Source: Utricularia gibba
Lineage: Eukaryota; Streptophyta; Magnoliopsida; Lamiales; Lentibulariaceae
Assembly (NCBI GenBank): GCA_002189035.1
Contig: NEEC01000014.1
Span: forward strand, 2,730,501-2,794,500
Direction: 5' to 3'
Length of the DNA: 64,000 nucleotides
This document shows, in pieces, positions 11,441-62,939 of this stretch (its first letter is position 1; every line of letters begins with the position of its first letter). The translations under genes and the position numbers were made by a program. Below the pieces are notes generated by a model. The model did no database searches and had not been told where the DNA came from. It saw only the letters and a list, made by a program, of their open reading frames with translations.

Positions 11441-11989
11441 TATCCTAAAAGACACTAGACTTGTCCCCAAATCCTACCTAAGACTAACAGAAAGCTACTC
11501 TGAAATAATAGAAGGTTTGAGTGAATGATTGAGCAATGATTTTCGTATGCATGAACTAAAGAAGTGCTTGTGTGCATGTCATGTGATCACTCACACACAC
11601 ATGAAGAGATTTCTCTTGAGGAGTGTTTTTGAAGATTACTCCGTGAGTGAGTTCTTTCAAAACCATTTGGGGGTGGGGTGATTGCCAACCGGTTTCAACA
11701 TCCTCTTTTTCGCTATCTCTCTTCTTGCAACCTTTTCCTTGAATGAGTATTGACCAAGAACTATCATCTTATTTCTCCAAGCCTTTTCCTACTCCTCTAG
11801 ATTGATCCATCCTTGTTAGCCTTTTCACCTATCTTCAAGTCTGCACATACTATTTAGTTATGTGCTGCCTTTTACACAAAAATACAAGTTAGGTCTTGTA
11901 TGTTGGAGATAGATGAGGCTTCTAATCATACTTCTATAAGTAGTAGTATCCACATTCCTTCCCTGTTTGTTTTCTTCAATCACCTATTT

Positions 11990-20337: not shown

Positions 20338-20966
20338 TGTTTTGATGGGGTATAAATCGGATTTTATTAATCGGTTACTGAAAAGGATGGCAAAAGGTGT
20401 CCTAACAGCTTGATGCAGGCCAACAGATCAATAATTGTCAGAGTTTGTTAGCGACGGTCATTTTGGACAGTCTAAAAATTGGTCGAATTACGACAATGAC
20501 AGAGCAAGCGGCAGTTATCTGAAAAGCAGGACCACAATACGTGCAATAGGTGTAGAAAGTAGCCGACATCTACAGAATTTAGAATTCGGTCAAACCTGCC
20601 TCATCTATAAATACAAGAAATCCTGTAGAAGAAAGGGTTTGACTCTAAGTCCTCCAACTTGTATTTTCTCGCCACCTCCATCTAGTGAAGATATTTTTCG
20701 GCGAGCTCCGACAGCTCCGTGGTTTTTCCATTCTCCAATGGTTTCCACGTAAAAATTATGTCTTCTCTAGTTTCTTTTAATTGCATCGCACCCCACACTA
20801 CATGTGAATCTAAATTGGGTACGACGCATCCGGCCGTACCCATAACCCAAAAATCGACTCCTGCCCTAATACCGATTTTCGACCACAACATTTTGGCACC
20901 CACCGTGAGGCAAGATCTATTGTTCCAGTTGAGAAACCCACATAAGCTACTCACTAAACGTTTATT

Positions 20967-24210: not shown

Positions 24211-24541
24211 GTAGCCGACATCTACATAATTCAAAATTCGGTCAAACCCGCCTCATCTATAAATACAAGAAATCCTGTAGAAGAAAGGGTTCGACTCTAA
24301 GTTCTCCAACTTGTATTTTCTCCCCACCTCCATTTAGTGAAGATATTTTCCGGTAAACTTCAACAGGTTTGTTGTTTTTCCATTCTCCGACGGTTTCCAC
24401 GTAAAAATTATGTTTCTACAGTTTCTTTTAATCGCATCGCACCCCACACTACACGTGAATCTAAATTAGGTATGACGCATCCGGTCGTACCCATAACCCG
24501 AAAATCGGCTCTCGCCCTAATACCGATTTTCGACCACAACA

Positions 24542-25992
24542 TGTTGGTATGATCAACATTACTTTTAATCAAAATAAACAAGAAACATCACATATTAATA
24601 CTACTTTGATATTTAATTATGATAAGTTCAATGCAGAATTTTTTTAATCAAAAAAATAAACCCAATCTATTTTTTAACTTAGGGAAGAACAATATTAAAA
24701 AAATTATTTATCCAAAAATAAACAATCAAATGTCCTTTGATAATATTCAAAAATATAAATAGTGTTTTGGAAAATTTTTTAAACTTATTTTTACTTTTAA
24801 AATTATTTTAGAAAAATATAAATAATAAATAAAATTAACCGACCCCTTACTTTTCCAAAAATAAATTTTATAGTATAATTTTAAAAGTATTTTTCATAGA
24901 ATTAATTTTACAATTAAAAATATTCTAGAACAAAAATATTTCTATTTTTGAAAAGTAGAAATAGATTTTAAAAATTTTTCAAAATACTTATGTAATTTCA
25001 CTACAATTAATTATCTAGACATTGTTAATATTCGAAAATGAGGAATTATTTAATTTTATAAAAAATAAACCATGATTTTTTCTTAAAATAATTGTAATAA
25101 AAAGCATGCTCAATGTTGCTTAATATCATTATATGGTGCCCAAAAAGTGTTTGAGTATTATATATTATCACTAAGCGACCTTGAAATAAGTTTAGGGGAT
25201 GTTTATTAGCATTAAGTGATGCTCATGAACATCTTTTGAAACATTTTCAATTCAGAAAGGTGATATAGTTTCAACATTCGTAGGAAGATACACATGATTA
25301 GAAATCAAAATCAATAATATTTGAACATTTATTTCCCATAAGGATTTTATATTAATGTATAATATATACTACTTAATTACACGATTCATTACATCACTCT
25401 TTTGGTTATTTGGTTGATCGGCAGACTTAATGATGGAGTATTAAATGGTATATGCCATATGGAGACGAAATGGTCTGGAAAGAGATCTCATATGTATTAT
25501 GATAGTTTATATTAGGCAGACAAATTGACAAGGGTTAGAACTGAACAACGTCGGATGTTTTGGTAAAATGTGAAAAGTAGCATAATTGTAGGAATCTTAG
25601 AATAGTCGATGATTATTCATCAGCAAGACCACCAGGCACATAAAGCGATTGACATTGACAATATGTGATCAGAACCACCTCCATTATAAATAGGGAAACG
25701 TTTGAAGTAAGACGGATTAGACTCTCAACATACCATTTATAACCTTTCTTTCTTCTTATTTTAATGAAATCATTTCTTTGATGAGTTCTGTAGCTTTCCG
25801 TTCTAATGGTTTCCATGTAAAAATTTTGATCTTCGTTACTTCTTTCATCCCAATAGTAACCCACAAACCCGAAAACTATAAATCGGATATGAACAAAACT
25901 GGTTTCACAACCCAAAAATTAGTCATCTTGTGCACTTCCACATTCCTTAAAGAGGTGCAAAGGATCCTCATCTTACTGATTCATGTACTTCA
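24542..25992. other. AT-rich intergenic stretch with a diverged LTR-like piece
   Basis: No gene seen. From about 25600 the sequence faintly follows the family C LTR (TATAAATAG, then TGGTTTCCATGTAAAAATT, then ACAACCCAAAAATTAG), so it may be an old relative. Confidence 0.4.
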
Positions 25993-29500: not shown

Positions 29501-30681
29501 TTCAATTATTCCTAATAACTTGGTATTATAGTAATCCACAATCCCACATATGGAGGAGGTATTGAATGTTATGAAAAAAATGCAACTACAAATGGATTAG
29601 TGGTTGGGAGATATGGAGATGTTTTAACAACTTAGAACACAATGCTATTGAATCTGCAAATAATAGCAGCAAGTCAACAATCGATGCATAGTTCAAAGAC
29701 AACATTGGAATCCACAAGAATGACCGTTAAGACAATGAAATTGGAAATTTTCAATGACATGTTCGATCCACTCGGATGTCCAAGGGTCAGTATGAATTCT
29801 TAATTATGACGCTTAGTTTAACTAATGCCCGAACTACCTTTCAAAACATCATGAATTATGTGTTTAAATCTTATTGATGGAAATTTGTGTTTGTCTTTAT
29901 TTGTGATATCTTGGTGTATAGCTCTAGCCTGGAAGAACATTTGTAACATACCTATTTAGTCTTCCAAAACCAATGGGAAAATCAACTCTTCATCAATGAC
30001 TCTAATGTCGATTAATGAAAAAAAGTTAGAAGCTATCACTAATTGGAAAGAGCCGAGTAACCTGAGAAAAATGAGGAGATTTTGGGATTCACTGGCATTG
30101 TAGGTGATTTATAACTCCTTTTAGTAGCATCTCATCCCCTCTAACAGCCATGCTCTAATGAGATAATTTTTATTGGAACCCAATTGCAACCCAATTGCAG
30201 AGAAGGTGTTTGACAACCTCAAATCATTGTTGACACAAGCTCCAATACTTGCATCCCGTAACTTCAACAAAACACTTGTGATGAGTGTGATGCATCTAAG
30301 CATGGAATAGGGGTTTTGTTACATGCGGAACAACAATGTATGCCTACTTTAGTAGGTTACTTGCAAACCTGCATCAATCCTTAGTCACATATGAGAAGGA
30401 ACTCATCATTTTGGTTTATGCAATCAAACAATAGAGAGGTTATTTATGTGGAAGAATGTTTAGCACAAAAACAGATCGCCAAAGTCTTCAATATTCATTG
30501 CAATAAAAGATCTATAATCTCTTCCAATAGGAATGGTTTACTAAGCTCATATAATAAGGGTTGTGAGAATATCGATGATGATGCTTTGTCATGGAGGTAC
30601 AATTAGGAAATGTATCTGATGGCTATTACAACACCACAGCTACTCTTATTTGATCAATTGAGGGAAGAAACATTAGCAAAC

Positions 30682-33355
30682 TGATAAACGAAAATTCCTA
30701 ATGTCGTTGCAAAAATAGAAATTTCGTATCAAATAAATTTAAAAGCCCTAATCTATACAAAATACAAATTAAGAAAACTTATATAGTGGATTTTGGGATC
30801 GATCACGAGAAGCTTGTGTTTGCTAGGTGTTTCAGCATATGAAAAATTCGGAATAATAGTGGTTTTAGTCTAAGCTCAAACTAATATAGGTAACCAAGTT
30901 CAGTTAACAGAATCAAGTCTCAACGCTGAAAGTAACAATTACTAGTTTTAACAAAGAGTAATACTAAGATGCCTTAAGGGTCTACAGGTAATGTGGTGCA
31001 AAAATGTCTAATTTAATTTACCATGTTCCTATACTCACAACTCTAAACAGTCTAAGTCTACCCAGGTTATTCATTATATTTTCAGCTAAGTTAGTCCTTA
31101 ATATCATCACCAACATTGTAATTAGGTCTACCCGCATGCAAAGTGCATAGAACTCGGTCTACTTGGTTCTACTGGTTCTTTCCTGGACTAATACCTACTA
31201 CGCCCGCCTTGATTTGTTGGTCTACCTCTAAACCAAATATCTTAGTTGTGAAACTACTTGTTCCCCTTCTTAGATCTATCCATGAATTGATAGAAATAAG
31301 AGCTAAGTAACAAACATAAATTTCTTTATTAATCCTAAGTACACACCACCATACTTCACCTTAAAGCATCCCTAAAGTTTTAGCTACTCATATATGAAAG
31401 ATAAAATATGATATCATTAAGATAAACTGAAGAGAATAGCAAAGACATTGTAAAACAACAGTCAAAGTAATGAAAAATCTAGCAAAATAAAGCTAGAGTG
31501 TTTTTGTTCGCGATCTGCTCTGTTCACTGCCCAAAAAAGTAGCGTAAAAGTCTTTTGATGCGTGTCGTTTCCACAACAAATTTTAATACTTTTAAAACTC
31601 GTAAAACACAAAAGCGTAGTACGGGTGTCGAACACAAGGAGTTGTTTTTGAGTGAAAGGTGAGGCACCCCGAATACAACTGTCACGATTTGTAAACGGTT
31701 TTGAAGGTAAAGGTGCGAGAAACGTTGATGATGAAGCTTGAGTAAGGGAATGAGAGGGATTTTGAACATACAATTAAAATGAACGTAAACGATGAATCTT
31801 AAATAAAGTAAATGTTCCTGGGTTTGGAATCCTGTCCAGCTATGTTCGTTGCGTCTTCACTCATCTCTAGTCCTCTCGAGTACTCGATTATAGGAGTAAG
31901 GAATTGTCTACCCTCCCTTACACTCTCTTGCAAGAAGGCACGGGAATAGCCCGATATTGCTCCTCCTTGGACGAACGTGAGAATAATAGGTCCTCCCAGC
32001 GTACCCTAACGGCCGAATTGCGCGCGTGTGCCCAAGTGTTGTCAATGACCCAATGAGTCCAGATACGAGGTCACTACCTGTCCATTGATCTTGAGGTACG
32101 ACTACAGACAAAACGTTGTCTTCCTCCTGCCAAAAGGGTTCGAGTTGGTGCTTTCCACCTTGCTCCTCTCCAAAATCCGCGGGTAGTGATCAACTAACCA
32201 TGAACCTTGAACAAGGGGACTGTTACAGAAAGACTGCAACATAGAAGCGCGAAGACATACGAAACCCGTTCGGATTCAGAGAAAATGTGAAGATAAGCTA
32301 ATGATGCATAGATCTGAGGGTGTTCCAACCCAGAAACGGAAGTTTCTAGCTACGAACGGCCATACAAACTAAAGGAAATGCAAACAAGGTTCTAGAGAGA
32401 AGTTAGAGGAAAATTCCTCTAGAGAGAGAAACAAAAAGGAAAACTAAACTTGTCTGAACTGAACTGAACTTCATTGAGAGTCTGAGCTTTCATGTCCCTA
32501 TGATTCTGCTGAACTTGGGATGACTTGCAAGCAACGTCTGACACTGGTACGCTAATGATGCCCCCCTGTCAGAGACTCCCGTGTTCCGCACGTCAAGGCT
32601 CATGATTAGGCGTCTGCAGTCTTCCAGAAATCAAGGGAATGTCAGCTCGGGAAGATCCAATTTGTCGCCATTTGATGCCCTCTTTCTCGCACTTCCTGCC
32701 ACGTGTGCGCCTCTAGAAAAACTCAATTAAAACTAGTAAAATTAATAGATAAAATACAAGATTTAGGATAATTACCCTAAACTAGATAAAAACTCAAATC
32801 TCACATTATAGACTTCTAATTAGACACTTCTAATCACATTTAAACATAAAAACAACCTAAGAAATAATAAGAAAATGACACTTAACATCTTTCATCTTCC
32901 TTCTCGAGAAATCGCCTTCATCTTCCTTCTTTCGTGTTCCTCCTGCCCTCTCCTAGGGTCTGGTCGTGTTCTCTTCCTTCTCCCTTTTCCCCAAAAATAT
33001 CTTCACATCTTTTTTCCATTTTTCAAAATCAGTCCACTATTCTGTACCATTCCTAGCCTAAACCTACAGACTGTAGGTGGCTGAATATTAATCATGTCTC
33101 ATTCTTGTGTCTTGTGCCCCTTCGAGTTGTGCTCATAAACTAGCTAAATGTGATCCACAATGTTGCTGCTAACACTTGAAAAAATATTAGAAATCATAAT
33201 ATATACTAAATCATTAATTTAGTCAATATTATGCATAAAAATACAAATAACACTACAATTAACAAAATATCAAAAATCATAGTTAAAATACATAATTTTA
33301 TCATTAAACATCTAAATTTCATAACCTAAAAACACTAATAAAATGTGTGTTATCA
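30682..33355 (-). mobile_element. Solo LTR, family A, split by a family B solo LTR (target duplication CAAAC)
   Basis: Starts TGATAAACG and ends GTGTTATCA, with the perfect duplication CAAAC at 30677-30681 and 33356-33360. Without the nested 1332-base insertion and its duplication, the LTR is about 1.34 kb, matching the other family A copies. It sits between the RNase H and integrase parts of the gypsy. Confidence 0.92.
31556..32887. mobile_element. Solo LTR, family B, nested in family A (target duplication TCTTT)
   Basis: 1332 bases, TGATGCGTGTCG...GACACTTAACA, homologous to 6190-7487, flanked by TCTTT at 31551-31555 and 32888-32892. The family A sequence resumes directly after it. Open frames inside are chance. 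Confidence 0.92.
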
Positions 33356-35899: not shown

Positions 35900-36229
35900 C
35901 TTCAAGAAATCAATATCCATGCAAATCAATTTATAAAAATGGTGTTGCACTCATAAAATAAGAAGAAGATGAGAGTGATAAACCATATTAAACACTACAA
36001 AACAGTTTGTTAAATATAAATTTTTCAAGAACTCAGTGTACTATAATTGCTCACAATATACATTATAAATAGAATTTTTCATCAACTACATTGAAACCAT
36101 TCTTATATAATTAGTCAAATAGGCCTATTGTAAAAAAGGTATTAATAGTCAAGTAGAAATACATTACCCAACTTTAATCTCTTTGTTCTATCTTAAGTAG
36201 ATTGAATTCCTTATCACATTTTTCATAGG
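35900..36229. other. Intergenic, no gene seen
   Basis: AT-rich sequence between two solo LTRs. Confidence 0.4.
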
Positions 36230-36688
36230 TGTTATGGGTAAAATCGGTATCCGAGATGAGACCGATTTTAGGGTGATAAATGAGGTCAGGAATATCGCAC
36301 TTAGTTGTGTTTTTCGTGGTTTGTTCGCACGGAGCTATCGGAGCTCGCCGGAGAAGATTTTCACTAGAAGGAGGTGGCCAAGAAGATGATACAAGTTGAA
36401 GAGTTCTTAGGATCCAACTCTTTCTCCATAATGGTTTCTTCTATTTATAGAAGAGCTCAATCTGGCCGAATCATGACGTTTGCAACTATCGGTTGCTTTC
36501 TGCTCCTGCTATACAATCTCGCTTTTCAGATATCGGCCGTCTATTATGTCATAATTCGGCTGCTTTTCAGACTGTGCCGTACGGCCATATCTGTCAGATA
36601 TCGGTTTGCCGTCTGGTATTATCCCTTCAGAGTTTCTTTTGGCAGCATTTTAGGAACCGATTACGCTCGAATGATTTATCCCCCATTA
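36230..36688 (-). mobile_element. Solo LTR, gypsy family C, 0.4 kb upstream of GID4 (target duplication ATAGG)
   Basis: A 459-base reversed family C LTR from TGTTATGGGTAAAATCGG to CCCCCATTA. ATAGG flanks it at 36225-36229 and 36689-36693. It is shorter than the 552-base copies and its last dinucleotide is TA instead of CA. Open frames on the plus strand here are LTR sequence. Confidence 0.85.
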
Positions 36689-37097
36689 ATAGGTTTGTGA
36701 TTTGATATATAATTCTTTCAAAAGCTTTTGATTCTTTCATATCTTTAATCTAGTGATTAATTAAAGTAAAATCATTGAAGTATTAGTGATTTCTTTTTTT
36801 CTTTCATCTTCATTATCTTTACTTTTAGTATCCATGATACCATCAAAGAGTTCGGTCAGGATTCCATCCCGAATTCATTGTTTATGTCTGTCTACCTGTG
36901 TAATCGGCTGGGCCGCACTATGGCATCTAATATCGTGCTCCTTACTAAAAATAGAAGAAGCAGGGCCCATGAACTCTATATATCGGGCTTAGAACCCCAA
37001 TGACTTTTATCTTAGAAAGGGGCCCACTTGTAATCACGCCCATTCATTATTGCTTTTCCGGAGTCACCGATGCCCGACGTTTTGTCGGAAATCAGAA

Positions 37098-38821
37098 ATG
37101 CCGGTTAGAGTGGTGGATGCTACTTCTCCTTCTCAAATATCAGGTTTGTATTCTGCTATGATGTTGATTCGTGGTTCTGTCTAGGTTTTGTGCTTTGGAA
37201 TTGTGTATTTTATGCTTAAGGTTGCCGGATGGACGATTATAACGCGTTTGAGTTTGGAGCTTCTTTGAATTCACTCATGCGGCTATCTTGAGCTGAAACT
37301 CTGTTTTCCATTGAAGGCACAACTACGGGATTCAGTTTACCGCCTCCGTGCTCTCTTTTGAGTGTTGGGCAGGTAATCTCATTGATTGAAATGCGGAATT
37401 CCTTGCGTATACAGAATTTCAGGTGTATATCACTAAGTTATGTTTCGGATTTCCAGCGTAAAGAACGTTATCAGGGATTTGATGTGAATCCTTTGTTGTT
37501 GGATATAATCGGGATTTTTCATTGGCTTTCTGTACTTTAGTGTCAGATGTTGCGAAATTGTAGTATATGTGGATGGAATCTGAATTTTAGATTGTGGATA
37601 AAGGAAAGATTAGAGAGCATTGTGTTTTATGCAGTGGCAAGCATTCTGCTCATATCTAGGAGAGTCTTGACTTGCTAACTGCATAGCAGGCTTTCTCAGG
37701 GACGCAAAATGTTTCTAGCCTCCAGAAAGATGAAGCGTGGCGTGTTAATGTACGCATTCAAGGTTGTGATCTTGAGCATGGGTACTTATGTGGTACTATG
37801 GAAGCACTGAATGTTCCGATGGCTGATACCCCTGTAAGAATTTTGAACATCCGCAACTCTAACTTGGAATTCTTGTAAGACATCCATATGTTGATATTTT
37901 TCTTTGCTTGTGCGTTTCCTGGACCATCTTGTTGGGTGTCGGTAGTAGAACTTTGATCTATCCTTATTTGAAAAATACTCATAGCATACATATGCGAGTA
38001 ACATTTAAGGAAGCAGTGAACAAAACTCTCATCATTATTTTTCTATGTGATCATCTTGTACAAAGCTTCAGTTCATTGCTTTTGTGTCTTTCAGGTTGTT
38101 ACCTTCTGGGAGGGTGAAATTGTCGACACAAAAAACTACACTTTCTTCACTGGAAAGTGGGGAGCAACGTATGCTGTTTTTATTCTCCACGTTTGCCACA
38201 TTCCGGCCCTTCACCACCATAGTTCTTTGATTGAACTTTATGTGTTAAGCAGGTCTGAAGATGACATCAAACACTGGACAAAGTTTACATCCTTCTCATC
38301 ACTTCCGGTTTCTTTTACTGTCGTTCCCACCATCTTTCATGTGTACTGCACAGCACAACTCACTTTATGTCATCTTTTCCAGAGCGAGGTGGAAGTTGAT
38401 GGTGGGAAATCTGTGGATTTGAGTAACTATCCGTACATCTTCATGGTAAGGCTCTTCCTCTAGTGTCCCATCTTCATGAAATGAGTAGAATCTGGTGATA
38501 CATTTAACCCCCTCCATGCCGTTTCCATCTCCCAGAGATGGAAGGAGCAGTACTTTGTAAATGCTGGAAATGACTGTGGCCTCACCATTGCCGGCTTCTA
38601 CTACGTTTGCTTTTCATGCAGCGATGGATCAATCAATGGGTTTTACTATGATCCCAACAGCAGGTGCGTGCTGCATCATATAAGTCGCGCCCCTGAACTA
38701 CTTACAGGGATCACACAATCCGCTTATTTTCTTGTTGTGTAGTCCCTTCCAGAAACTGGAACTGAAGGCCACCAATGATGGAAGATCAGGTTTCTCCTTC
38801 TCCACGTACGAGCTACAGTAA
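37098..38821 (+). CDS. GID4: GID4 / Vid24-like substrate receptor of the GID/CTLH E3 ligase
   Basis: A complete eight-exon gene encoding 214 residues, the usual plant GID4 length. The protein starts MPVRVVDATSPSQ, and the Vid24 beta-barrel holds LEHGYLCGTMEALNVPMADT, VVTFWEGEIVDTKNYTFFTG, DDIKHWTKF, YIFMRWKEQYFVN and CGLTIAGFYYVCFSCSDGSI, ending SGFSFSTYELQ. In yeast and animals GID4 binds proteins with an N-terminal proline for ubiquitination. The plant role is inferred from strong similarity. Exons: 37098-37143, 37317-37372, 37690-37833, 38095-38168, 38253-38307, 38383-38445, 38536-38663 and 38743-38821. All junctions are GT-AG and in phase. A copia LTR begins seven bases after the stop codon, and a solo LTR lies about 400 bases upstream. 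Confidence 0.95.
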
Positions 38822-39079
38822 GGAAATTTGTTGACTTGGTAGCTGGGTCAAAGTCTTCGTTTATTTACGGAGTCTGAGTTTTCTTATTTTGTGGGGTGTT
38901 CGTTGCATTAGTTCTCCTCGTGGCTTGTTTTTCGGTTGGTTGTGAGTAATTGCTTTTTAGTTAAACGCAATTTGTTAATAGGTTTATATATAAGCTTGAT
39001 TTTCAGTTGATAGGGCATTGAATTCGGATGTCTAATTTTGCTTTGGTTTAACAATTGGTATCGGAGCCATGACAACATG

Positions 39080-39840
39080 AAGCAACCAGAATTCATTCAT
39101 TCAACGCTTTGAAAGTTAACTGCAATTACTGGGTAATGATGATAGAGAATTTGCTTTGCTCAAAGAAATATTGGGACATAATTGAGATTTGAATCCATCG
39201 TACGTAGAGAGCCGCTACTCCCCATCACAATTGAAAGCTCAAGGATTCGAGTGTCAAGAATTACGAAATACAACCCATTCATTGTTGCTACACGAAGAGC
39301 ATCTTGGGCAAATCTAGTGCTTGATTTGGGAGGGGATGGCAAAAAAGCTTGTAGCTAACACCCTTCTCAGTGTTCAGTGATCACATCTTCAACTTACATT
39401 GGGAATTTGGAATGTTGGAGATGCAAGGAGGAAATTGGTTGTCATCACTATCAGAGAAGTAAAACTACGTTTTGTGCTGAATTGAAGAATCCGATGATGT
39501 GAAGAACATAACCATTGATGAGCCTTAAGGATCAATACTAGTGCATGAAAAAAAGGTCTAATACACTAGAGTGTGAAAAATGAGCCATTACTATTAAAGC
39601 AAAGCAAATGAGAACCACGATTGAGGAAATGAGGATTTTTCATGGAAGAGATGGAAGTCATAGAAGAAGAGAATGTGGAGAAAGGGGTCTCACAAAGAAA
39701 CAATCAGCGCTATAGGTACCACAAATTAGGACATTACGGAAGTGAATGTCCTAACTATAAGGACGACCATAACGAGAAGGAAAATGATGACAAGGTACTT
39801 CTAATGGTATATGATGATGAAACATAACAAGATATCCTTC
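39080..39840 (+). pseudogene. Copia gag remnant
   Basis: Starts shortly after the primer site. An early block reads KVNCNYWVMMIENLLCSKKY. A zinc-knuckle relic, RYHKLGHYGSECPNYK (about 39712-39760), has lost its first cysteines. Several stops break the frame. Confidence 0.7.
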
Positions 39841-42323
39841 ATGGCATTTCCACTCATCAACAACAATGAATCTAGATCGGATTCATAAACAGATCAATCA
39901 CATAAACAGAAATGAGAGTTATTAAAAAATAATCATAGTATATGGGTAAGACTTTAACAAACAGAAGTAAAGAATATTTATTCAATGTTTTTCATAAATC
40001 ATAGAGGGAGGCTCCTTGCTACCCCTAGAACTACACTACAAAATGTAGTCACATAACGTAAAAACATAACTACTTGAAAATGATAAGAACAATGCTTGTG
40101 GGCAGAAGGTGCTAGATAAAACACTTTTTTTTCATAATAGATCATTAACTATTTGAGTATTTGGTTAACTAAAGTCATGTCTATATTCATGAGGTAAATC
40201 AAAAGGTTAAGTTGAGTAATAAGAGCTTTCATCATGAAGGCACCAATTGAGCTTGAGCAAGAAAATACACAACCATGTGTTGCAAGAGAAAAACTTAATG
40301 CACAAACTTAAAGAGAAATTATTCTCTTATTTCCTCATAGCAATAGTAGTACATAGAAGTGTTTATACAAGCATGCTAAACATTAAGTATTATCCAAACA
40401 AAAGTACTAAATAACTACCTAAAACTACACTCTCTTATCTTATTACAAGTTCTTCAAATGTAGCTATGTTGGATGGCCTTTGTTGTGGGTTCCAACACTC
40501 CCCCACAAACCTAAGCCATCCCTTAATCCAAGCATTCCTTGTAGCACAGTGAACATCCCTCGAGATAGAGGTTTTGTGAAGATGTCTACATGTTAATCTT
40601 GTATTTTCACATACTCCAATGTTACCACATTCCCAATAATAAAGTCTCTAATGTAGTTGTATTTTGCTGCTATGTGCTTGTTTTTTCCATGGAAGATTGG
40701 ATTTTTACTCAACTCTATGATAGAATTATTATCAATCATGATTCTTGTAGGAGCAGATTGTGCACATCCAAAATCACTCAAAAGATTTATGAGTCAAACA
40801 GCTTGGCATACGCAATGATTTGCAACAACAGATTCAGCCTCACACATGGATAAGGCAATCATCAGCTACTTCTTAGAACAAGCAGTATTTCCAATAAAAA
40901 ATGCAAACCCTGAGATGCTCTTAAAATCATCTAGATTGCCACCCCAATCACTATCACTATACTTGCATAACTCGAAAGTTTCTGATTTTTGAAACCAAAG
41001 TCCAAAGTTCAATTTTCCTTTAACATAACATAGAATTCTTTTAGCAATAGTAAGATGAAGCAAGGTTGGACTCTTCATGAGGTGATTGACCAAGCCTATT
41101 GCATAGAGAATGTCAGGTCTAGCACTTGTGAGATATCTTAAACTCGCAACCAAGCTTATAAAAAGTGTAAGATCTACACTTCCACTTGAATCATTCAAAT
41201 GTAGTTTTGAGCTAATAGCCACTGGTTGGTCTATTGGCTTATGTAAATATTAAGGAAGAATAGAGATGAAGAAAGGTTGAGGGCAATGAGAGTTGGAGAT
41301 CTCTGTAGATTCAATTTCCTTACTCATTCATGTACTTTTCTATTTTCTCTACTTATATAAGTTATTAGTTCTTTATACACTATACATGACCTACATGAGC
41401 CCAATCGATTATTGCGTTCTTCTTTAAGTAATGGTCTTGTGTGATTCTGTTGCTTCTTCACACCCTCCTCAAACGAGACATTTGCGAATATAGTAAGTCC
41501 AAGTTTGTCTCATAAGAAGAAAAATGCTTGTGTTTGCAATGACTATGTAAATATATTTACAACCTACGAACCTGTAGCTATATGCATTAGAGATATAAAA
41601 CCGAAAAAATAGTGATCTCTCACCACATGGCAGTCTATATCAAGATGTTTGGTACGTTCATGAAAGAGGCATTATGAGTAATGTGCAATGAGTACCTATT
41701 AGTCTAGAAGAGAATGGCTAGAGAAATGAGCACCTGCATGTCCTTCATAAGATATGTAATCCACAACAAATCTAGAGTGATTGTTCCCATGGCCTAGTAC
41801 TCTACCTCATCTGAAGAACGAGACACAATTGTCTATTTTTTCGCTCTTCAATTGATCAAATTATTTCTCAAAAATATGCAAAATTCTGTGACTGAACAAT
41901 GAGTTTCAAGATACATTCCCTAATCTGCATCACAGAATGCCTACAGTTGTGTAGTTCTTGAACACATATAATGCAATCCATGATCTTCAATGTGCTTCAA
42001 ATATCTCAATAGTCTGTTTACTACAGTCTAATGATTAATAGTTGGCTGTTTCATAAACTGACTCAATTGTTGCATATAGAAGGTGATATCTAGTCATGTA
42101 AACCCAAATATAGCAACCATCCAAACACTTTACGATACCCTTCCAAGTCGTGCAATGGATTCTCATTGTCCAATGGAAATCGTAAGCCCTTGAACATTGG
42201 TGTGGCTATCTCTCTAAACAGATTTCTTTCCAAGTTGGACAGCAAAGTTTTGATATACTTCAAATCAGATCCTTATGTTGTTTCTTTTTTGTTGGATCTA
42301 ATTTTTTATAGAAGAAGATGATA

Positions 42324-42843
42324 ATGGCTCCCTGCATCCCCTGTAGCGCACAAGGACGATGTTGTGCTCCCAATTGCGTGGCACGCCCCTTCTTTGAACC
42401 GGACACAGGGAAGACTTCCGCCTCACTGATGAAGTGTTTGGATACACTTATCTGGTGAAGTGCATCGAGGCAGCCCTTGATGACTATAAAGCAGCAGCTA
42501 TGGAGGATCTAGTTATCATGGCTTATGATCATGTCGCCATTGTATTACCTTATCGTTATGAGGGATCATTGAGGAGGGGAATGGATGGCTCGTCGCTGCA
42601 AAGCCGATGGTTCTCTCTTCAGACTTCCAATTCTTGCCCATTGAGTTGGTCGAGAAAGTTTTCACCTTATTGCCTGCAACCGAAGTTTTATGAGATTGGT
42701 AAAGGTTCAAGGACATTCTGGGATTCATGGCAGTTCTATGGTAATGTTTCATTGGATAGAGAGTTTGTCACAGGGATAGGTGATGATGCCTTGAGGACAA
42801 GGATTGTTGGGGACATTATCATGATGCATTCCAGTATTGGGGC
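42324..42843 (+). pseudogene. Possible captured host-gene fragment, LOB-domain-like start
   Basis: Inside the minus-strand copia there is a plus-strand segment of higher GC. From 42324 it reads MAPCIPCSAQGRCCAPNCVA, with the CX2CX6CX3C spacing of LOB (LBD) transcription factors, then RPFFEPD. In another frame it continues DFRLTDEVFGYTYLVKCIEA, which faintly follows the LOB block KVFGASNVxK. The rest, open to 42843, I do not recognise. It is interrupted by the solo LTR at 42844 and a short piece may continue at 44345-44399. The LOB assignment is tentative; the fragment has at least one frame change. Confidence 0.4.
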
Positions 42844-44344
42844 TGTTAGTGTATGTGTTCTAGAGACAATCAACTCATTGGCAAATCTTATCTTATGATA
42901 TTTACTTTGAATTGTGATCAAATTTATATCATTGATAAAATCCTCTACTTGATCTATATGCTATAGAAATTATGATGAGATCATAATGTGAGATTCTTCA
43001 AGCACTCATGATCAAGTTAAAAACTCCCTAGCTAGAGTATTTGTGAAATGAGGATATCACAAATACGGATAAGCTGACACACATTGAGTTCCCTAAATTA
43101 TTTAGGCAATGGTTCTCATAATTGATGTAATGAGATTACTAGAACCTATGTGTGGGTGTCGATTAGAGAATTGATTCACTGGATGACTCATCTTCGAGAT
43201 ACTACTATGGGAAGCTAACCAAGTGTCAGTAGCAAGATCTCGAATATGATAGCCGTGGAAGTAAGCTTAGACTTGAGGTCAACAAAGTTATCTTGATCTT
43301 AAGCTCACATTTTCGCTCATTACTAATGGGAGCCTAACCATGGCTTGCCTAGTATGGATGAGTAGGGATGTGACTCCTTAAGGTTGGAGATAGTTGATTG
43401 ATCAATAAAGGATTCATCACTCATGTTAGCGATGAGATCATATCTCAAGTAATTGCATCAAAGCCTAAAAGTAAGTCCTGGGCTCAGGGTAATGACACTC
43501 GAATTGTTTGAGTAGGTCATTGAGTGTTAGTGCTTGAATGCAATTATAAGTTCGATACATCAGAAAGACACACACCCATGTTTTAGTATCGAATGAGATA
43601 TAAGTATGATGAAAGCTGTTCATTGCATGGTGGCTGGTCATGGAAAGGCTCAATCAGTTCACCTGATTATTCTTACATCTTGGGAATCATGATATGTTGC
43701 TAGACATCACTCATGATCGATAATGATGGATTTGATTAATTAAGAGTTAATTAATAAATCCATTATTATGGCCTTGATTGAAGAAGCCTATAGGGTCACA
43801 CACAATAGTGGAGTCACTCAACGATATAAAATAGAATGACACAATTACATGAGATGTAATTGGTAAAGTGGATAAATTAAATTGAGAGTTATTTTGAGAT
43901 TAATATTGATTAAACTCAAAATAAAAGATCATATATAGATAAGATTTGGAACATATATATATTTCCACAAGATAAGATCTTTACGGAGATATGATTTGAT
44001 ATGTTACCAAATATCTATCAAAAAGATTTAAATCTTGAGATCTGCTCCATGGGTCTTCGTGATCTCAGAGACTAATCCACAAGGAGGCGTTTTTCTCTAC
44101 TAGCACCTGAGGAATTCGACCAGCATTCAAGAGCCTTGAGAAGGTTATCGACGGAGTGCTCCACGTGTGGATACCATAGAGGCCGTCTCCTATTGACGGT
44201 TGGTGAACAACGGAGTCATTTGAAAGGTATTTTAGCATCCCTTAGTCTGATGTATACCGTATTCCAAGATCTGCGTTGGGGTTTCTCAAAATTTTTAAAA
44301 TTCCGCTGCTTTGGAGACATACGGTGTCTACGAGAAACCCAACA
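42844..44344. mobile_element. Fourth-level copia-type solo LTR
   Basis: 1501 bases from TGTTAGTGTATGTGTTCTAG to GAGAAACCCAACA, with the body typical of long copia LTRs. The flanks are GGGGC (42839-42843) and GGAGC (44345-44349), one mismatch. It interrupts the gene-like fragment. Confidence 0.7.
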
Positions 44345-47300
44345 GGAGCTCGATGTTTTTTCTTTGTATTTCAATGCCATGACAGATTACCAAAAGTAGC
44401 TTGTGAATAAATGGGTGAGGAGAGTGGATATAAAAACTCGAAATAAGGAAACAAGCTCTTGTTTATTTTCTAGAAGGAAAGTTCATATGGATCGTGAATA
44501 ATCATCCATGATGGTTAGAAAAAATGTAGTTCCAGTGATTTTTGGGGTTTTGTATATGCATCTGAAGGTTGCGTGTTCATTCCACTCTCACCCACCATAT
44601 AAAGATTAAGGAAGAATAGAGATAAAGAAAGGTTGAGGGCAATGAGAGTAGGGAATCTGTGTGGATCCAATTTTCTTCCTCATCTATTTACTTTTATGTT
44701 TTCTCTACTTATACAATTTTTCATTTCTTTGTACACTATACATGACCTACATAGGCCCAATCAATTATTGTGTTCTTCTTCAACTAATGATCTTGTGTTG
44801 TTCTGCTGCTTCTTCAGCTTACAGTGTTCTAAGCCAAACCACTTTAAAGTATCATCAGCGAACATGCTTTGGAAAATGGAGATACTTTCTTTATTCTTGC
44901 TGACATGAATTGCGAGGTAGTGACTCATCAAACTGAGATCACTCCTTTCAAACTCTTTATTCATAGCGTGCTTGAAAGTCTCAAAAGAGAAACACTTTCA
45001 GTGAATACTGGACCATCCACATACAAACATAGTAGTAGGATTCCGCTATACTCATTAATTCTAAATACAAGCTGTGCTCATAAGAACATCTCTTGAAATG
45101 ATTTTTAACAAGATAATGGTGAATTTGCATATGCCAAGCATGTGGTGTTCAAGAAACCCATTCAAAAATGCAGATTTTACATCTATTTGATGGATTTTCC
45201 ACTAATGTTGAGTTGGCACTGATATAATTAACCTAATAGTTTGCATTCAAGCAATTAGAGTGAACATTTCACCAAAATCTAGGCCTTCCTTCTACTTATA
45301 TCCTTTAACAACTAATCTAGCCTTGTATTTTTCTATTTTACCAATAACATATCTTTTGATTCTATATACTCATTTGACTCTAATAACATCTTTGTTTATT
45401 GATTTGTCGGCCAACTCCCAAGTTTCATTCCTCCTAATAGCATTCATCTCATCTTCCATTGCTTTTCTCCATTTTGAATTATGGACAGCTTCTTCAAAGC
45501 TCAGATTTTCAGATTCCACAAATAAGCAATAATGAGAGAAATGCACATGTTTTGTAGCCTTTGCATACGATAATCTGCTTGACTTTTCAGCAGCCTTAAT
45601 CATTAAGATCGCTTGGCTGTCTTCTAACATAACCAGTTTGCACCACATTAGATGCAATAGGTTGGTGTAGAGGCTCTAACTATTGTTGCTACTGCACGTC
45701 TGGTTCTGGTGGTTGCTGGAATTCAAGGGATTTAATGAATCTGCTATAATATCATCAAAAACATGTAAGCTTCATTATCATTTGGGGAGGTTTCCCAATT
45801 CTAACTTGCAAATTCATCAAACTCAACATTCCTGGTAATCACAACTTTATTATCCAAATGATTGAAAAGTGTGTAGCCCTTTGAATTGAGGTCATAATCA
45901 ATGAAGACAAATTTCCTACAATGATTATCCAGCTTTGATCTTGTTTGTTTAAGTATATGTGCATATGCTACACCCAAACACTTGTGAGTAACTTTTGGTA
46001 AAATTACTCTAAGCTTGTTAAGAAGTAGCTCAAGCAATATTTTTACTAAAGCTTCTATTTAGCAAATAAACCATATAGTGAGCTGCTTCTGCCCAAAATT
46101 GTTTAGGCATGTTCTTGGTGCTATGTATACAACAAATCAAATTTAGAATTACTCCATTTTTCTGAGGTGTGTGAACAACTTTTATAGGTCTTCATAATCC
46201 AATTTCATCACAGAAAGCCTAAAAGTCTTGGAAAGAAAATTCTCCACCTCTATCTGAATGAAAAGCTTTAATTAGAATACTACTTTATCACTCAACCAAG
46301 GTCTGAAATTTCTTGAATGCATCAAAAACTTCTGATTTCCTTGTTAGAAAATAAATCCAATATTTTCAAGAATAATTATCAACAAGTAGTAAAAATAATT
46401 GTGATTTCCTTTAGAAGTTGGAATAATTGGACCATAAACATCTTCATGAACTAGTTCAAAAAGATTCCATGCTATGAATGTGGACACTTTAGGAATAATT
46501 TCTTAGTTTGCTTTCTGAATACGCAGCCTTCCACAGCCATGTTGGTTGAGAAATTGTTGGCAATCCAATAACCAAATCATTCCTGCTCATGAAACTAAGG
46601 TTGTCAAAATTAATATGAGCATATCAGAAATGTCAAAGCCAAAATGGACTGGAATATACCATCTTCATGCATTTATAAGTATCAGAATCAAGAGTCAAGA
46701 CAAACATTCTATTGGAGTACATCGAAACATTAACAAGAGGTCTATGGTTGTCATCCTTGATGGTTAGATTTCCACCAACCAATTGAATATTACACCCCTA
46801 CTCCAAGAATTCTCCCAAACGTAGTATGTTTAATTGTAGGAATGCTACATATAAAATATTTTGAAGAAGCAAGATAGAATCAATTTGTAATGAAGTAAGA
46901 ACTGACCCTCGACCAGTAATTGTTACTTTGGATGAGTCACCAAAGGAGATGGCCCCACTATAAGGCTCATCCAACTCTTAAAATAAGGATTTATTTCAAG
47001 TCATATGATTACTTGCTCTTGAATTAATGTACTACCTATTTGCCTTCTCGTCTCTAAAGAAAATAGTAAGATTGGATTTTCCACTTCTATTTTTTCTTCA
47101 ACCATGAAGCTTTGGAAGTTCGAAGCTTTTGCACCAGACTCGCATTCTCAAGAGTAATGATCAAGCTTATGAATTGTGTAACACTCAACTTGAGATTTAT
47201 CCTTCTTGTGATCGCTTGACTTCCAATATGTCGATTTCCCTCTCCCTCTTCCATGGTGTGATGAAGTAGAGGGTTTATCATTTTCAGATGAGGATTTATC

Positions 47301-48250
47301 AATTTGATGTTCATAATATCTACCTCGACCATGACCTTGTAATCCTACTCTTCCTAGTCCTCTAGGGTATGATTACTTAAAATATTTCATCCCCTCAACC
47401 TTATGTGCAATGGCTTGTGCTTGAAACACAACATCTGATGGCTCTTCTCTCCATTTCAAGCGATCCCCATGTGCTTGCAATGAACTATACAACTCTTCAA
47501 TTGTTAGATCACTAACTTTATTAGCCTCTTTTATGACTACAACAATATGATCAAATTTTGGCTACAAGGATCTTAGAATCTTCTCAAATATTCTTTCATT
47601 ACTAAGTTTATCCCCAAGCCGATTCATTTGATTAGTGATAGCTTGTACTCGAACACAAAAGTCCGTGATTGATTTTCAGCGCTTCTATTTTATAGCTTCA
47701 GAATCCCCATGTAGTATCTGCAATCGCAGCTTTTTCACACAATCAACCCCTTGAAATGAATTTTTCAAGGCATCTTATGACTGTTTAGAAGTTGTCGCTG
47801 CTGCATTTCGAAAAAGATATCATCCAAGGTTTGATATAGAAGAGACAATGCCTTCTTGCTCCTCCATTGTACTGCCGCATTAGATCCTAAGGCTTCGATG
47901 GTGATAGCATCCAAACACTCATAGGCACCCAATAAAGCCCCTATGCGTACACCAATTTTCATAGTTGTCCTTTGTAAGGATAGGAACTGATAGATTGCCA
48001 TCATTAGACATCTTTGTAAACCAAGAATCGAGTAGCTTTGATACCACTTTGTTGCAAGAAAAAACTTTGATGCACAAATTAGAAGAAAATTTGTTCTCTT
48101 ATTTCCTCATAGCAATAGTAGTACATAGGAGTGTTTATATAGCTACGCTATACAATAAGTATTATCCAAATAAAACTGCTAAACAACTAACTAAAACTAC
48201 ACTCCCTTATCCTATTATAGGTTCTTCAGATGCAGCTACGTTGGATGGCA

Positions 48251-50489
48251 CATCAAATGAAGGATCAATCTTGTGACACATATTTTTTATGGTGTTTTAA
48301 TTCACATAATTAGGATTATTTAATATAAAATTTGAAGTTCTTGAGTATAAATTCTAATATTTTACAATTCTAATAGTATTATTAATTTTGTCTATTAGAG
48401 TGGATTAAATCATTGATTTAATCTACTTTGCCCTTGCAATAATATTTGTATTCAAGTTTGGTAGCAATTTTTATTTAGATCAATTTTCACTAGCATTCAT
48501 TTGAATTCCAAACAGAGGGAGTGAGCTTTAAGAGAAAAATAGAAGAAAGGTAGAGGATTCTTGTATTGTTAATGGTATAAAGATTTCAGAGGATAAACTT
48601 CTAATAAAGGTAAGCTATTATTGTAATTTTGATTTTGCACAAAAAGAGGAAGTAGATAGAAGAAATAAAATCATCAATCCTAAAGAGAGGACAAAGCAAT
48701 GATGATCCCTCAAAGTACTATTTTGATATTCAATCATGAGTTGCGTGGAGTACAATTTGAAATTTAACATCATCTTATTCATGACCTAGTCAAAAACGAA
48801 ATCATTAAGTCAGAGCATTTTCTTTGTATCCTCAATTTCTACAAAAATTTTCAATTATATACATTTTTTCTATTTTAGAGACTGTTTGGATATGACGCTT
48901 TGTAAAATCTTGTTGATATATCAAACTTGATCTTAGCTTAAAGGTTTGTAAGTTGATGTAAGAGCCATAAAAAATTACGTTATGTTAAATGACACATGCT
49001 AATCACATGTTTGTTATTTAAAAATTAATTCATAGTAAAGAAACTTATCTATTAGGTGAATATACTGAATCCTATGATTGTAAAATGCAATATTATCCTT
49101 ATTTTTCAAAAAAAAATTATTCTAATCATCAATTTTGGATATTTTAATAATATTGTATATAAGTCTAATTTTTCTATCAAAAATATGATAATGAATTTTT
49201 ATTAAATAAAAATTTCAACAAAACATATTGATACTTTCAAATCATTTATTTTTATATAAATTAATTTAATTCATATTCAATATCAAATAAATTAAAACAT
49301 CCTACTAAATGAACTCTAAGTTGGTATGTAGTTTTTTTTTCTTATGAAGTTTCAGGCTTAAATTAAGGAGCTAGTCAATGTATGTTTTCAATTTTTTTTT
49401 TAAAGTCTTTACTCATGATGGCTAGAATTTTTTTGAAGATAGAGAATATATTCTTTAACTTGAGGCAAAATCTCAATATTTTTATTTATGTTTATTTATA
49501 GATATTGCTAGTTGGGGCTAGTTTTTTGGACAATATTTGATAACTACCAAGTTAAATGTGGTTGAATGCTACTGTCCTACATGGTTAGCACCTTGATTTA
49601 ATCATTGCTTCATGTTTATAATTTTCAAAATTATTTTATATATAATTAAGGAGAATTGTGAAGCAATTGGACCATGAGACAAATAATATATTTGTTGGGT
49701 TATGGAATTAATTTGTAAATGAATCTATTTGTTGTTTTCTTTTAATATATAAATAGAATATGCTAAAATAAAGAGGACTTGAGAGTGGATAAAAAAAAGA
49801 CAAGTAGTAGGAGCTTACACTACATACGTAGATTCTTTTGTGAGTTTGATTGTGTATTGTTAGTTATCGGTGATTCATGAAGTTTTCTCCTCTTTGATCA
49901 CATTTTTACTATCATGGTCTGGAGTTGATCACATTCATATTTAATATTGGCATTGGAATTTAGATTTCTCCTATTCTTGATACAAGATCACGGGGATTCA
50001 TCGATCTAGTAATGAATTAGAGTTTCACTTGATTTTTGTATTTTGGATGTCCATAAACTCAACTGATTTTTTTTTTTTACAAACTATGTAGATTGTTCCT
50101 GGATTGACTATTGACTTACAATTGTGTTCTTTTTTTCTAGTTTTTCAAATATGATTCAGGAATATACCACAATTTAGTTGTCTTAAAAAAACAATCAAAA
50201 TATAACAATTGTGAAAGAAAAACACCGGAAAAAGCCCATGATGTTACAAATGGAACAACACTTGGAAGCTCACAAAATTTTTAGAAAATGAAAAATAAAT
50301 AAAAGAAAATGGAGAGAACTTGAAAAGTATAAAACAATATTAGTTGTTAAAAATTTTACACAATAATAAGGCATCAACTCTACTAAGATATTTGCTCAGT
50401 TGCTCATTTAGATACCATTAGAATTACCATGGTTATTGCTATATCAAATGCGAATTATTTATCAGCTTAATGTTAAATCTACATTTTTA
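48251..50489. other. AT-rich sequence inside the outer copia, unassigned
   Basis: No coding signal. It begins TGACACATATTTTTTATGG near 48276 and has an inverted repeat GATTAAATCATTGATTTAATC near 48413, both reminiscent of the family A LTR, so a diverged copy may be present. Confidence 0.4.
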
Positions 50490-51433
50490 CATAGAACGTT
50501 ATACAAGAATGTATTTGTTGAGCAGCTCAAGGGACTTAGGCCCCAAGAACATGGTTTAGTAAGCTTGAAACTCATTTTTTGAATGCTAGGTTTGAAAAGC
50601 TATTGTGGAATATACCCTATTCACAAAGAAAGCAATGAAAACAGATTGATAGCTTATATATACTTTGATGATTCATTGTATATAAAAAATAAATGAACAA
50701 CTGATGGAAAACGTCAAGGAGAATATGTAGCAAAGAGATATGACAAATCTTGTAAGAATGAGATATTATTGGGTATAGAAGTGATGTAAAGAGATGAAGA
50801 AATCTGCATATATCAAAGAAATTTGCTGAAGAAGTTCTTGAACGATTCAAAATGAATGAAAGTAGCATGGTAAGTACAACAATCATGGAGTATAAGCAAA
50901 AATGAGTGGGTCAGGTAGTAATGCAAGAACCTACCAACAAATAATTGAAAGCATGATGCATTTAACTAGAACTTGATCAAATTTTTGTCTAAGTTGTGGT
51001 TTTTCCAAGTATGTTTATGGAAAAGCCAAGAGATACTCATTTACATCGATTGAAAAGAACACTAAGATATCTACACAGAACTCTTAATATGATACTTTTT
51101 ACAAGAGTGAGGAAAGGGCTAAAACTCAAAGCTTATACAAATAGCAACTATGCAGGTAACCTAGATGACAAGAAAAGCACATCATGGTATGGTTTCAAGA
51201 TGAGCCGAGGAGTTGTACTTTATTTCTCCAAGAAACAACCAATGGTTACATTATTCACAAGTGAAGCAAAGTTCATACGTGTGGTTCAATGTGCATGTCA
51301 AGTTCTCTGGACTATTAGAATTATGAAAGCACTTAACTGCAGGCAAGCTGAATCATCGGTGATGATCCAACTTATAATAAAATACAAGTTGCATTCACTG
51401 TCACATAAGCAGCAAATATCACCTATCCATTGA
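50490..51433 (+). pseudogene. Copia reverse transcriptase (end) and RNase H
   Basis: Reverse transcriptase remnants include APRTWFSKLETHFLNARFEK and a YFDD box (50661-50672), then EILLGIEVM. RNase H is open at 50996-51433 with LKAYTNSNYAGNLDDKKSTS and YFSKKQPMVTLFTSEAKF. Stops upstream break the frame. It belongs to the outer copia. Confidence 0.85.
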
Positions 51434-51668
51434 AGATTGAGGAATTTGAAAAGTTAAGATCCAAGCTGAGAGTTAATATGGTGACCCTACGGTTCTAGAT
51501 TAAGCGAGGGATTGAAGGAAAAGTTGCCAAATGTTAGTTGATTTGATAGCTGAGTCACCGTCCTCCTCTTCACTTGTTTTAAGGTACTTGTTAGTTTGTT
51601 AATCGTGTCCATTGTGGGAGGCTTATTTAAAAGTCTGATTTTGAGTTGAGAGGGGGTTGAATTGAAGT

Positions 51669-51790
51669 GATGAGGCAGCAAGAAGCAGTTGAGAGGGTAG
51701 GATATTTTCGTCATTTACTGTGCTGTGCTGCTGGTCATATGGAAGGGCATGCCATCATAAATAGTGATGAGGCACCAAGAAGCAATTCCG
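51669..51790 (+). repeat. Short direct repeat between copia LTR and cyclin promoter
   Basis: GTGATGAGGCAGCAAGAAGC at about 51669 recurs with one change near 51765 (GGCACCAAGAAGC), 97 bases apart. Its origin is unclear; it may be a local duplication at the end of the outer copia. Confidence 0.55.
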
Positions 51791-52123
51791 CTTGTGCTAC
51801 TGCTGCCCACCCAATATGTATTGTACCCACTACACTACATTGGGGCGCACCGCACCGTACGCACTATTTTTGGTGGTGCGGCTGACTGTCAGCCGAGGCT
51901 CTGAGCAGATGTGGGGCCCCAGCGAATAAGATAAGAAACAAAAAGAAAAGGTAGGCCCGGTGGTTTGGGCCACCATAAAAACCCTAAACGCCTCCTCGTG
52001 CAAACGGCTCCAGAATCTCTCTTATCTGTCCGCATTTACCCTTTTTTCATGAACGTCGTGTCCCTCTCCTCACACCTCTTCCCGCTTTCCTCCAACTCCA
52101 ACTACCCATAACTCCCTCTACTC

Positions 52124-52131
52124 TATATATA
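52124..52131 (+). promoter_or_regulatory. TATA box of the D-type cyclin
   Basis: TATATATA lies about 75-80 bases before the cyclin start codon, after a pyrimidine-rich stretch (52020-52120). Confidence 0.55.
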
Positions 52132-52204
52132 CGCACACGCACAGGGGCATGACTCTGCATGCGTGCTGCCCACCCGATCATTCTGCTGCCCGCGTATCAT
52201 AATA

Positions 52205-53591
52205 ATGGAGAAGAGCGTAAACTTGCTGTGCGCCGAGGACTTCTTGCGAGCGGGTACTCAGGACGATGACTGCATTTTCGATAGCATTGGAAACGATTTC
52301 TCGGGTTCGGACAACGACGATGACTTTCTTCTGCGGTGTCTTGTGGACAAAGAGGTCAACCATCTACCGGAGAAGGGCTACTCCCGTTTCGTTCAGGAGA
52401 ACGAGTCCGTCGCAATCTCCAGGTCTCGGGCTGTTTCTTGGATTCTCAGGGTAACGATTACTCGCACACAATGGCTTGTTGCTTTGACTGCTCTGCTCTG
52501 TTGATGCTAACTTGTGCAATTCTGTTGTAGTCACAAACGAGAATGAACCTCTCTGTCGGAACGGTTTTTACCGCAACCAATTACCTGGATCGGTTTATTT
52601 CTCTCACCCGGTGCCAAGTAGAGCCACAAAAACCTGTTTCTTCTTTACGGGTAAATATGGCAGCTTTACTGATGCATGAACGAATGTCAGGGTCGGCAGC
52701 GCTGGATGTTCGAACTGCTTGCCGTGGCCTGCTTGACTGTCGCTTCCAAGCTATCAGAGACGACTGCTCATCCGTTGCAGGATTTTCAGGTTTGTGTAGA
52801 CATTCCCGGAGCTTATTCCCGCGGAAATCCGATCTTGGACTGATGTGAGCGGTGCCGGTGAATGCAGATGGAGGGTCAGGAGAACGCGTTTGCTCCCAGT
52901 CTGATACAGAGGATGGAGCTGACTTTGTTGAAGACGCTGGGCTGGAGAATCGACTCCACCACCCCCTTTTCTTACATCCATTTGCTTGTCAAGTCCATCG
53001 ACGGAACCCTCGTCGGTGATTTCACGAAACACGTTACTCGCCGCCTTCTGGGTACTCTTTCAGGTGACCTGATTCTTAATCTTCATGCAGAGATAGATAC
53101 ACACTCGTTCCGGAACTCATCAGCTATAGCAACCCGTCACAGATCCGTCGTTTTTGGATTTCCGGCCATGCATTGTAACTGTATCAGCCATCAGATGCAC
53201 ATTCCAAGATATGTTCCCTTCGAAAAATGGTGCTTCACTGGAGCAGCTGGGTGCCATCATACCACAAAATCTCAAGGTAAATGAGCTTTCACAAGAACTC
53301 TTCCATTGACCTGCTGATGTGAAGTTCAATGACAGCGTGGGTTCGTTTTAGGGTGATCTGGTAAGGTGTCAAAGTATCATGCGGGAGAAGAAACTAATGG
53401 AGGTAGACAAGGATGCAAATGGTTCAGCCCTCATACGGTTCGCCCCTACGAGTCCGGTAACCGTGCTGAGGAAAGAAATGTTCGAGTCCGACGGCGACTG
53501 CAACGCCATGGGATTTCCTCCCATGAAGATGGAGAAAGATGGCAAGCCCTCAACAAGAACAAGCAGAAAAAGGAAGAGGGGAGAAGAATGA
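52205..53591 (+). CDS. CYCD: D-type cyclin (CYCD2/4-like)
   Basis: A complete six-exon gene for a 333-residue D cyclin, the partner of CDKA that starts G1 progression by phosphorylating the retinoblastoma-related protein. The retinoblastoma-binding LxCxE motif is LLCAE at residues 7-11. The N-terminal cyclin box shows AVSWILR, TNYLDRFISLTRCQ and RWMFELLAVACLTVASKLSE. IQRMELTLLKTLGWRI and TPFSYIHLL begin the C-terminal box, followed by SFLDFRPCIVTVSAI. The tail has FAPTSPVTVL and a basic KRKR nuclear signal. Exons: 52205-52450, 52531-52617, 52691-52789, 52868-53063, 53143-53276 and 53352-53591. The tail motifs resemble CYCD2/CYCD4. It ends 92 bases from the stop codon of the convergent TPR gene. 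Confidence 0.93.
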
Positions 53592-61547: not shown

Positions 61548-62939
61548 TGATAACACACGAATTTTTCTATCATTAGAATAAGAAAATTATGCTTTTGAAT
61601 CATATTTTAAGTGCTTATCTTATAGTTTTTAGTATTTTTACCAAATTTTGAGGACATAATGTGATTTTATGTGTTAATGAGCTAAATCCTTTGATTTAGC
61701 CCATTCCATGTTATTAACATTTTTTCTAGATCAGCAACAAAATTCTAAAATCAGAGAGGAAACATGAATTTCGTGCATGTAGAGATTTGGAAGAATGAGC
61801 AGCATTAAAAGAGGAGACATAATGCATTGTTCTGCCATCCACAGTCTACAGGTTCAGACCAGGAACAGTGCTGGTGTTAGGAATAGTGCAATGGAGTAAA
61901 GGAGGGGAGATAGTTTTGGAAAAAGAGAGAACGCGTAGCACGGGGAGTGCACGAGGGGGCTTCTCCCCTCAACACGATGAGTAATGAACCAGGAGAGGAA
62001 AAGAAGAACTTCATCCTCAAGAACAGCATCAGAGCCCAGTCCAACGCTACTGTTCCGACCCGGGAACAGTAGTAGACATGAACTAGAACTCTTACTGCTT
62101 TATTTTCGTTTGTTGATGTTTTCAGTTTCTGCAACCAACTCTTTCACGATGTTCTTGACATTTTCGTTGTATTATGTTAATGTCATTACTTTTTACTTTC
62201 CAAATATGAGTAGCTAGAACCTTAGGGATGTCTTGAGGTTAAACATGATGGTGTGGGTCTAGGATTCTTAATAAAATTCATTATTGTTTTTTAATTCTTG
62301 TTTCTATTATTCCATGGGTAGACCTAAGGAGGGGAACAAGTAACTTTGCAACTCAGAAGCTTGGTTTAGAGGTAGACTAACAAATCAAGGCGGGCGCCGT
62401 AGATGTTAGTCCAGGGTAGAACCAGTAGAACCGTGTAGACTTAGTTCTATACACTTTGCATGCAGGTAGACCTAATTGTAAGGTTGGTGATGACATTGAG
62501 AACTAGCTTAGCCGAAAATATGACAAATGACCTGAGTAGACTTATGTTATTTGAAGTTGTGAGTGTAGGAACATGGTAATCTAAGTTAGACATTTTAACA
62601 CCATACCACCTGTAGATCCTTAAGGCATCTTCGTATAATTTTGAGTTAGAACCAATCATTGTTACCTTTAGCATTAAGATCTAATATTGTTTACTGATCT
62701 TGTTTACCGACTTGTTTACCGATGTTGGTGCGAGCTTAGACTAAGACTTACTGTTATTCCGAACTATACATTTACTAAAATACTTAGCAAGCACAAGCTC
62801 CTCGTGATTGACCCTGAAATCCACTATACAAGTTTTCTAAATTTGTATTTTGTGTAGATTATGACTTATAAATTTATTTGATAACGAAATTTCTATTTTT
62901 GCAACGACATTAGGAATTTTCGTTTATCAGATATCATCT
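61548..62939 (+). mobile_element. Solo LTR, family A, plus orientation (target duplication GATAT)
   Basis: 1392 bases from TGATAACACACGAATTTTTC to TTTTCGTTTATCA, flanked by GATAT at 61543-61547 and 62940-62944. Homologous in reverse to 10117-11440 and 30682-33355. It splits the copia pol. Confidence 0.93.

Follow-up and report, generated by a model that had tools for sequence, protein, structure and literature searches.

A Copia-Type LTR in Sense Orientation Seven Bases Past the GID4 Stop Codon in Utricularia gibba Likely Supplies the 3′ End of the Gene

In Utricularia gibba, the LTR of a decayed copia-type retrotransposon begins seven bases past the stop codon of GID4, and its sequence suggests that it (38829–39053) likely supplies the 3′ UTR and the poly(A) region of this gene. 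The account that we favor, with rather more confidence than doubt, is that the element inserted in sense orientation and decayed while GID4 kept working, so that the GID4 mRNA most likely ends inside the 5′ LTR. The window is the whole stretch of DNA analyzed here, 64,000 nucleotides of contig NEEC01000014.1 (assembly GCA_002189035.1, positions 2,730,501 to 2,794,500), and all coordinates below are counted from its first letter.

Results

GID4 Gene and Its Upstream Region

The gene was delimited by its reading frame together with a profile search.

37098..38821, + strand, GID4 gene, eight exons, 214 aa
GID4 exons: 37098–37143, 37317–37372, 37690–37833, 38095–38168, 38253–38307, 38383–38445, 38536–38663, 38743–38821

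All seven introns are GT-AG, and the exons join into an open frame of 214 residues; this direct observation bears out the first-pass annotation, which had described the gene body as intact. The product matched PF09783 (Vac_ImportDeg) with an E-value of 4.5e-50 over model positions 2–161 of 162, meaning that the domain of the GID4/Vid24 receptors is covered over its whole length, and it also matched human GID4 from the Protein Data Bank (E 4.6e-30). The domain ends approximately 16 residues before the stop, which makes a large C-terminal truncation unlikely, and the tail STYELQ is what we take to be the usual plant C-terminus. A family search of the 100.09-Mb assembly (516 contigs) detected no second GID4, indicating a single-copy gene, and a paralogue with an undisturbed 3′ end, sought as a source of the ancestral 3′ UTR, was accordingly not found in this genome.

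Two features precede the coding region.

36230..36688, strand unassigned, solo LTR of a multi-copy family, with a perfect 5-bp target-site duplication ATAGG at 36225–36229 and 36689–36693
36694..37097, + strand, putative GID4 promoter and 5′ UTR outside the solo LTR, with the TATA-like box CTATATATC and GGGCC-containing motifs

The solo LTR, earlier placed 0.4 kb upstream of the start codon, was indeed located 409 bp upstream of the ATG. Its family comprises at least 40 scored genomic places (76–89% identity), and the relatives start with TGTTATGGG and end with CCATCA at the same columns. The copy near GID4 retains intact ends and the target duplication expected of a solo LTR, its last bases being CATTA versus CATCA in the relatives. 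A further suggestion, that transposon sequence controls GID4 at both ends, is unsupported, since approximately 409 bp containing the TATA-like box and GGGCC motifs separate the solo LTR from the ATG. Elsewhere in the window, direct repeats at 20559–20896 and 24211–24547 (90% identical) seem to be the LTR pair of a younger element and, when inverted, are related to the solo LTR. Another dispersed repeat occurs in three copies (10110–11448, 30681–31451, and 61573–62936) that are 71–80% identical, one of them inverted; long open frames are almost absent from it.

Element at the Stop Codon

The anatomy and orientation of the outer element and of the elements nested in it were read directly, as listed below.

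38829..39053, + strand, 5′ LTR of the outer copia-type element, with TG...CA ends and a partner LTR, starting with TGTTGACTT
39056..39068, + strand, primer binding site TGGTATCGGAGCC, tRNA-Met type with one mismatch, separated from the LTR by AT
39073..40271, + strand, decayed gag remnant, recognized by eye, short frames only, with a broken CCHC-like knuckle near 39705–39770
40272..~48275, − strand (antisense to GID4), nested copia element, with 85% identity between its terminal repeats (200 nt)
41241..44816, − strand, innermost copia-type element, with 85% identity between its terminal repeats (220 nt) and an RT/RNase H-like match at 42090–41495
50292..51433, + strand, decayed RT/RNase H of the outer element, 33–38% identity to copia ORFs, acidic RNase H residues apparently replaced
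51537..51663, + strand, 3′ LTR of the outer element, truncated, two co-linear blocks matching the 5′ LTR

The GID4 stop codon TAA (38819–38821) is followed by GGAAATT (38822–38828), and the LTR starts at 38829. The sequence, primer site, and partner LTR thus confirm a copia LTR seven bases past the stop, as first annotated, with a left boundary that is uncertain by a few bases owing to a short indel between the 3′ copy (TGTTAGTTGA) and the 5′ copy (TTTGTTGA). The primer site was compared with TGGTATCAGAGCC, the tRNA-Met primer-site sequence. The outer element was assigned to Ty1/copia by its direct LTR pair, its primer site, and an RT/RNase H region in the same orientation, which matched copia ORFs with E-values down to 7.8e-24; these comparison ORFs were taken as copia by their own sequence and primer sites. 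The closest two of them (L035 and L036) were considered as relatives of the outer element and set aside, being nearer to the nested antisense element. The RNase H piece gave no significant Pfam match, as was also the case for the ORFs of the nested elements, and the integrase region is missing from the outer element. Inside the innermost element, a 166-codon open frame on the + strand (42398–42898) has no Pfam match and is possibly a captured gene fragment.

The longer block of the LTR pair scored 33.5, as compared with 11.6 ± 1.7 (maximum 19.5) for 500 dinucleotide shuffles, and identity over both blocks was 98/130 (approximately 75%; K2P 0.30). The terminal CA is present in the 5′ copy only, the 3′ copy being truncated: it stops at GAATT (51663) and is devoid of the last ~29 bases. 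A search for this tail in the 540 bases past 51663 gave chance-level similarity only, and the target duplication AAATT was absent after the 3′ LTR. Deletion of the 3′ LTR end explains this absence, though it does not prove it. Recombination between GAATT of the LTR and AAATT of the duplication would fit the breakpoint, but it involves only four bases and is not claimed here.

Beyond the truncated LTR lie the following features.

51664..52204, + strand, putative cyclin promoter and 5′ UTR, the left end of which may retain parts of the ancestral GID4 3′ UTR
52205..53591 (extent approximate), + strand, D-type cyclin-like gene, Cyclin_N (E 4.5e-23), ATG at 52205

It had been proposed that the native GID4 3′ UTR was displaced by about 12.8 kb. 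The distance holds, since 38829 to 51663 spans 12.8 kb, but the displacement is not proven, because the 3′ LTR is without its last ~29 bases, no AAATT follows it, and the cyclin gene begins within 541 bp. Some of the native 3′ UTR may have been deleted. The position of the cyclin ATG implies that the ancestral GID4–cyclin spacer, to the extent that it is preserved, amounts to just ~550 bp. Over 51537–52205, the truncated 3′ LTR ends 541 bp before this ATG, and the nest therefore bounds the cyclin promoter region. A 25-base direct repeat (51666–51690 and 51763–51787, 23/25 identical) is also located just past the truncated 3′ LTR.

Age of the Insertion and State of GID4

The divergence between terminal repeats was obtained directly for each element. 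From outside inwards, the K2P values were 0.30, 0.17, and 0.16, with no measurable difference between the last two; the higher value of the outer element fits the nesting order. This corresponds to approximately 0.15 substitutions per neutral site on each LTR copy since insertion. When neutral decay of GID4 was simulated at 0.15 substitutions/site, only 1.6% of the runs kept the ATG and a stop-free ORF, with indels uncounted. Selection with the element in place is hence probable, given that the GID4 ORF is open despite the divergence of the outer element. These values suggest that the outer insertion is old and that GID4 has probably functioned under selection with this 3′ end for long. Elevated substitution rates are described for Utricularia (PMC4358910), and the divergence is therefore given as a relative age only.

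The selection argument requires both LTRs to be from one element. The 5′ LTR with gag and the RT with the 3′ LTR might instead be remains of two related elements, in which case the LTR–LTR distance would give no date. The aligned blocks are just 75% identical and gapped, and no relative is close enough to join gag with RT, which would agree with two elements. We nevertheless regard this as improbable, since the two parts share one orientation and form complementary halves (gag, then RT/RNase H), the ages are ordered as nesting predicts, and no further copy of the LTR was found elsewhere in the genome. An assembly error at 38829 is still harder to believe. No further copy of the LTR at 38829–39053 and no second copy of the 3′ flank was found in the 100-Mb assembly, so that no repeat was available to mislead the assembler and a repeat-driven misassembly is unlikely. 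It may also be asked whether GID4 was recently silenced or is dying, with the transposons marking its loss, as the transposon-rich surroundings and insertions on both sides could suggest. This is very unlikely, though less so than an assembly error: none of the eight exons or seven introns is disrupted, no other GID4 was found in the genome, and a dead ORF would usually carry stops at the age of the element.

Putative End of the GID4 mRNA

A sense-oriented 5′ LTR holds the signals that end the RNA of the retrotransposon itself, and the poly(A) site of GID4 was placed in the LTR because an LTR in this orientation brings its own poly(A) signal. Its position was deduced further from base composition. 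The 232 nt past the GID4 stop contain 45% T, with T/G-rich stretches at 38880–38937 followed by AATAGGTTTATATATAAG, an A/T-rich segment at 38975–38995, and, near 39000, a T-rich stretch that contains YA. Such a layout is like that of a degenerate plant poly(A) region and would give a 3′ UTR of ~180–230 nt. An AATAAA-like hexamer (one mismatch or fewer) was not found before 342 nt past the stop, that is, beyond the LTR; the first ones are located at 39163 and 39267. Lacking an early hexamer, the case for the LTR depends on composition and precedent. AAUAAA is absent from many plant genes, so that the missing hexamer weakens this argument but does not refute it. Precedent comes from Arabidopsis (PMC10241880): among 599 TEs associated there with alternative termination, 420 contained poly(A) sites, and alternative last exons were enriched in Copia elements.

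Decay may also have reached the poly(A) signal of the LTR. Transcription of GID4 could then continue into what is left of gag, or into the nested elements, and stop at a cryptic end, for example near 39163–39300, where the first AATAAA-like hexamers occur; the ~25% divergence of the LTR from its partner agrees with such a loss. Plant near-upstream elements are degenerate, however, and the LTR composition is as expected of a poly(A) region. Read-through is for these reasons rather unlikely, although it is the most credible of the alternatives considered here, and termination inside the 5′ LTR is preferred.

Discussion

The favored sequence of events is as follows. A copia-type element would have inserted in the direction of GID4, approximately seven bases past its stop codon, in the short spacer between GID4 and the cyclin gene. 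Decay, two further copia insertions, and loss of the 3′ LTR end would have followed, with GID4 remaining functional throughout and its mRNA being cleaved and polyadenylated inside the 5′ LTR, 180 to 230 nt past the stop. The insertion age, the lost target duplication, and the cyclin neighbor go beyond what the first-pass annotation had described. A genome of this kind has about 30,000 genes; for uniform insertion in 100 Mb with this gene number, the probability of falling within 10 bp past a stop codon is ~0.3%. First-look candidates for just two queries numbered 373 and 321, and roughly two such cases would therefore be expected by chance, before selection. By this rough estimate, the position of the LTR at the GID4 stop is eye-catching, yet not improbable genome-wide.

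If the RNA does end in the LTR, GID4 represents a clean natural example of a conserved single-copy gene of which the 3′ UTR was long ago replaced by a sense LTR, with the gene kept. It would then be informative on whether gene ends of this type rely on the silencing of transposons. A truncated DCL3 and low DNA methylation were reported for U. gibba (PMC8333044). One may speculate that selection maintains the LTR as the fixed terminator and 3′ UTR of GID4, and that it also bounds the cyclin promoter, in a lineage for which weak RNA-directed DNA methylation is reported; we consider this stronger proposal unlikely.

The features described here can be set against known systems. Over the whole domain, the protein matches GID4/Vid24, the substrate receptor of the GID/CTLH ubiquitin ligase (human, PDB 7nsc and 6ccr), and it differs from human GID4 in an extra C-terminal tail ending in STYELQ. 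The outer element shares TG..CA LTRs, a tRNA-Met-type primer site, and RT/RNase H homology to the copias of this genome with ordinary plant Ty1/copia elements, from which it is distinguished by heavy decay, the lack of a close genome relative, and a truncated 3′ LTR. LTR-supplied gene ends are already documented in Arabidopsis, and GID4 would be a further instance. RPP4 with ATCOPIA4, as well as GER5 and BEST1 with ONSEN/ATCOPIA78, likewise have Copia elements in their 3′ regions (PMC10241880). Transcripts ending inside the element were observed there by direct RNA reads (PMC10241880), whereas the GID4 end is predicted from sequence. ONSEN is antisense at GER5 (PMC10241880), while the GID4 LTR lies in sense. 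The insertion in RPP4 truncates the protein (PMC10241880), whereas the element at GID4 spares the whole coding sequence and starts seven bases past its stop codon.
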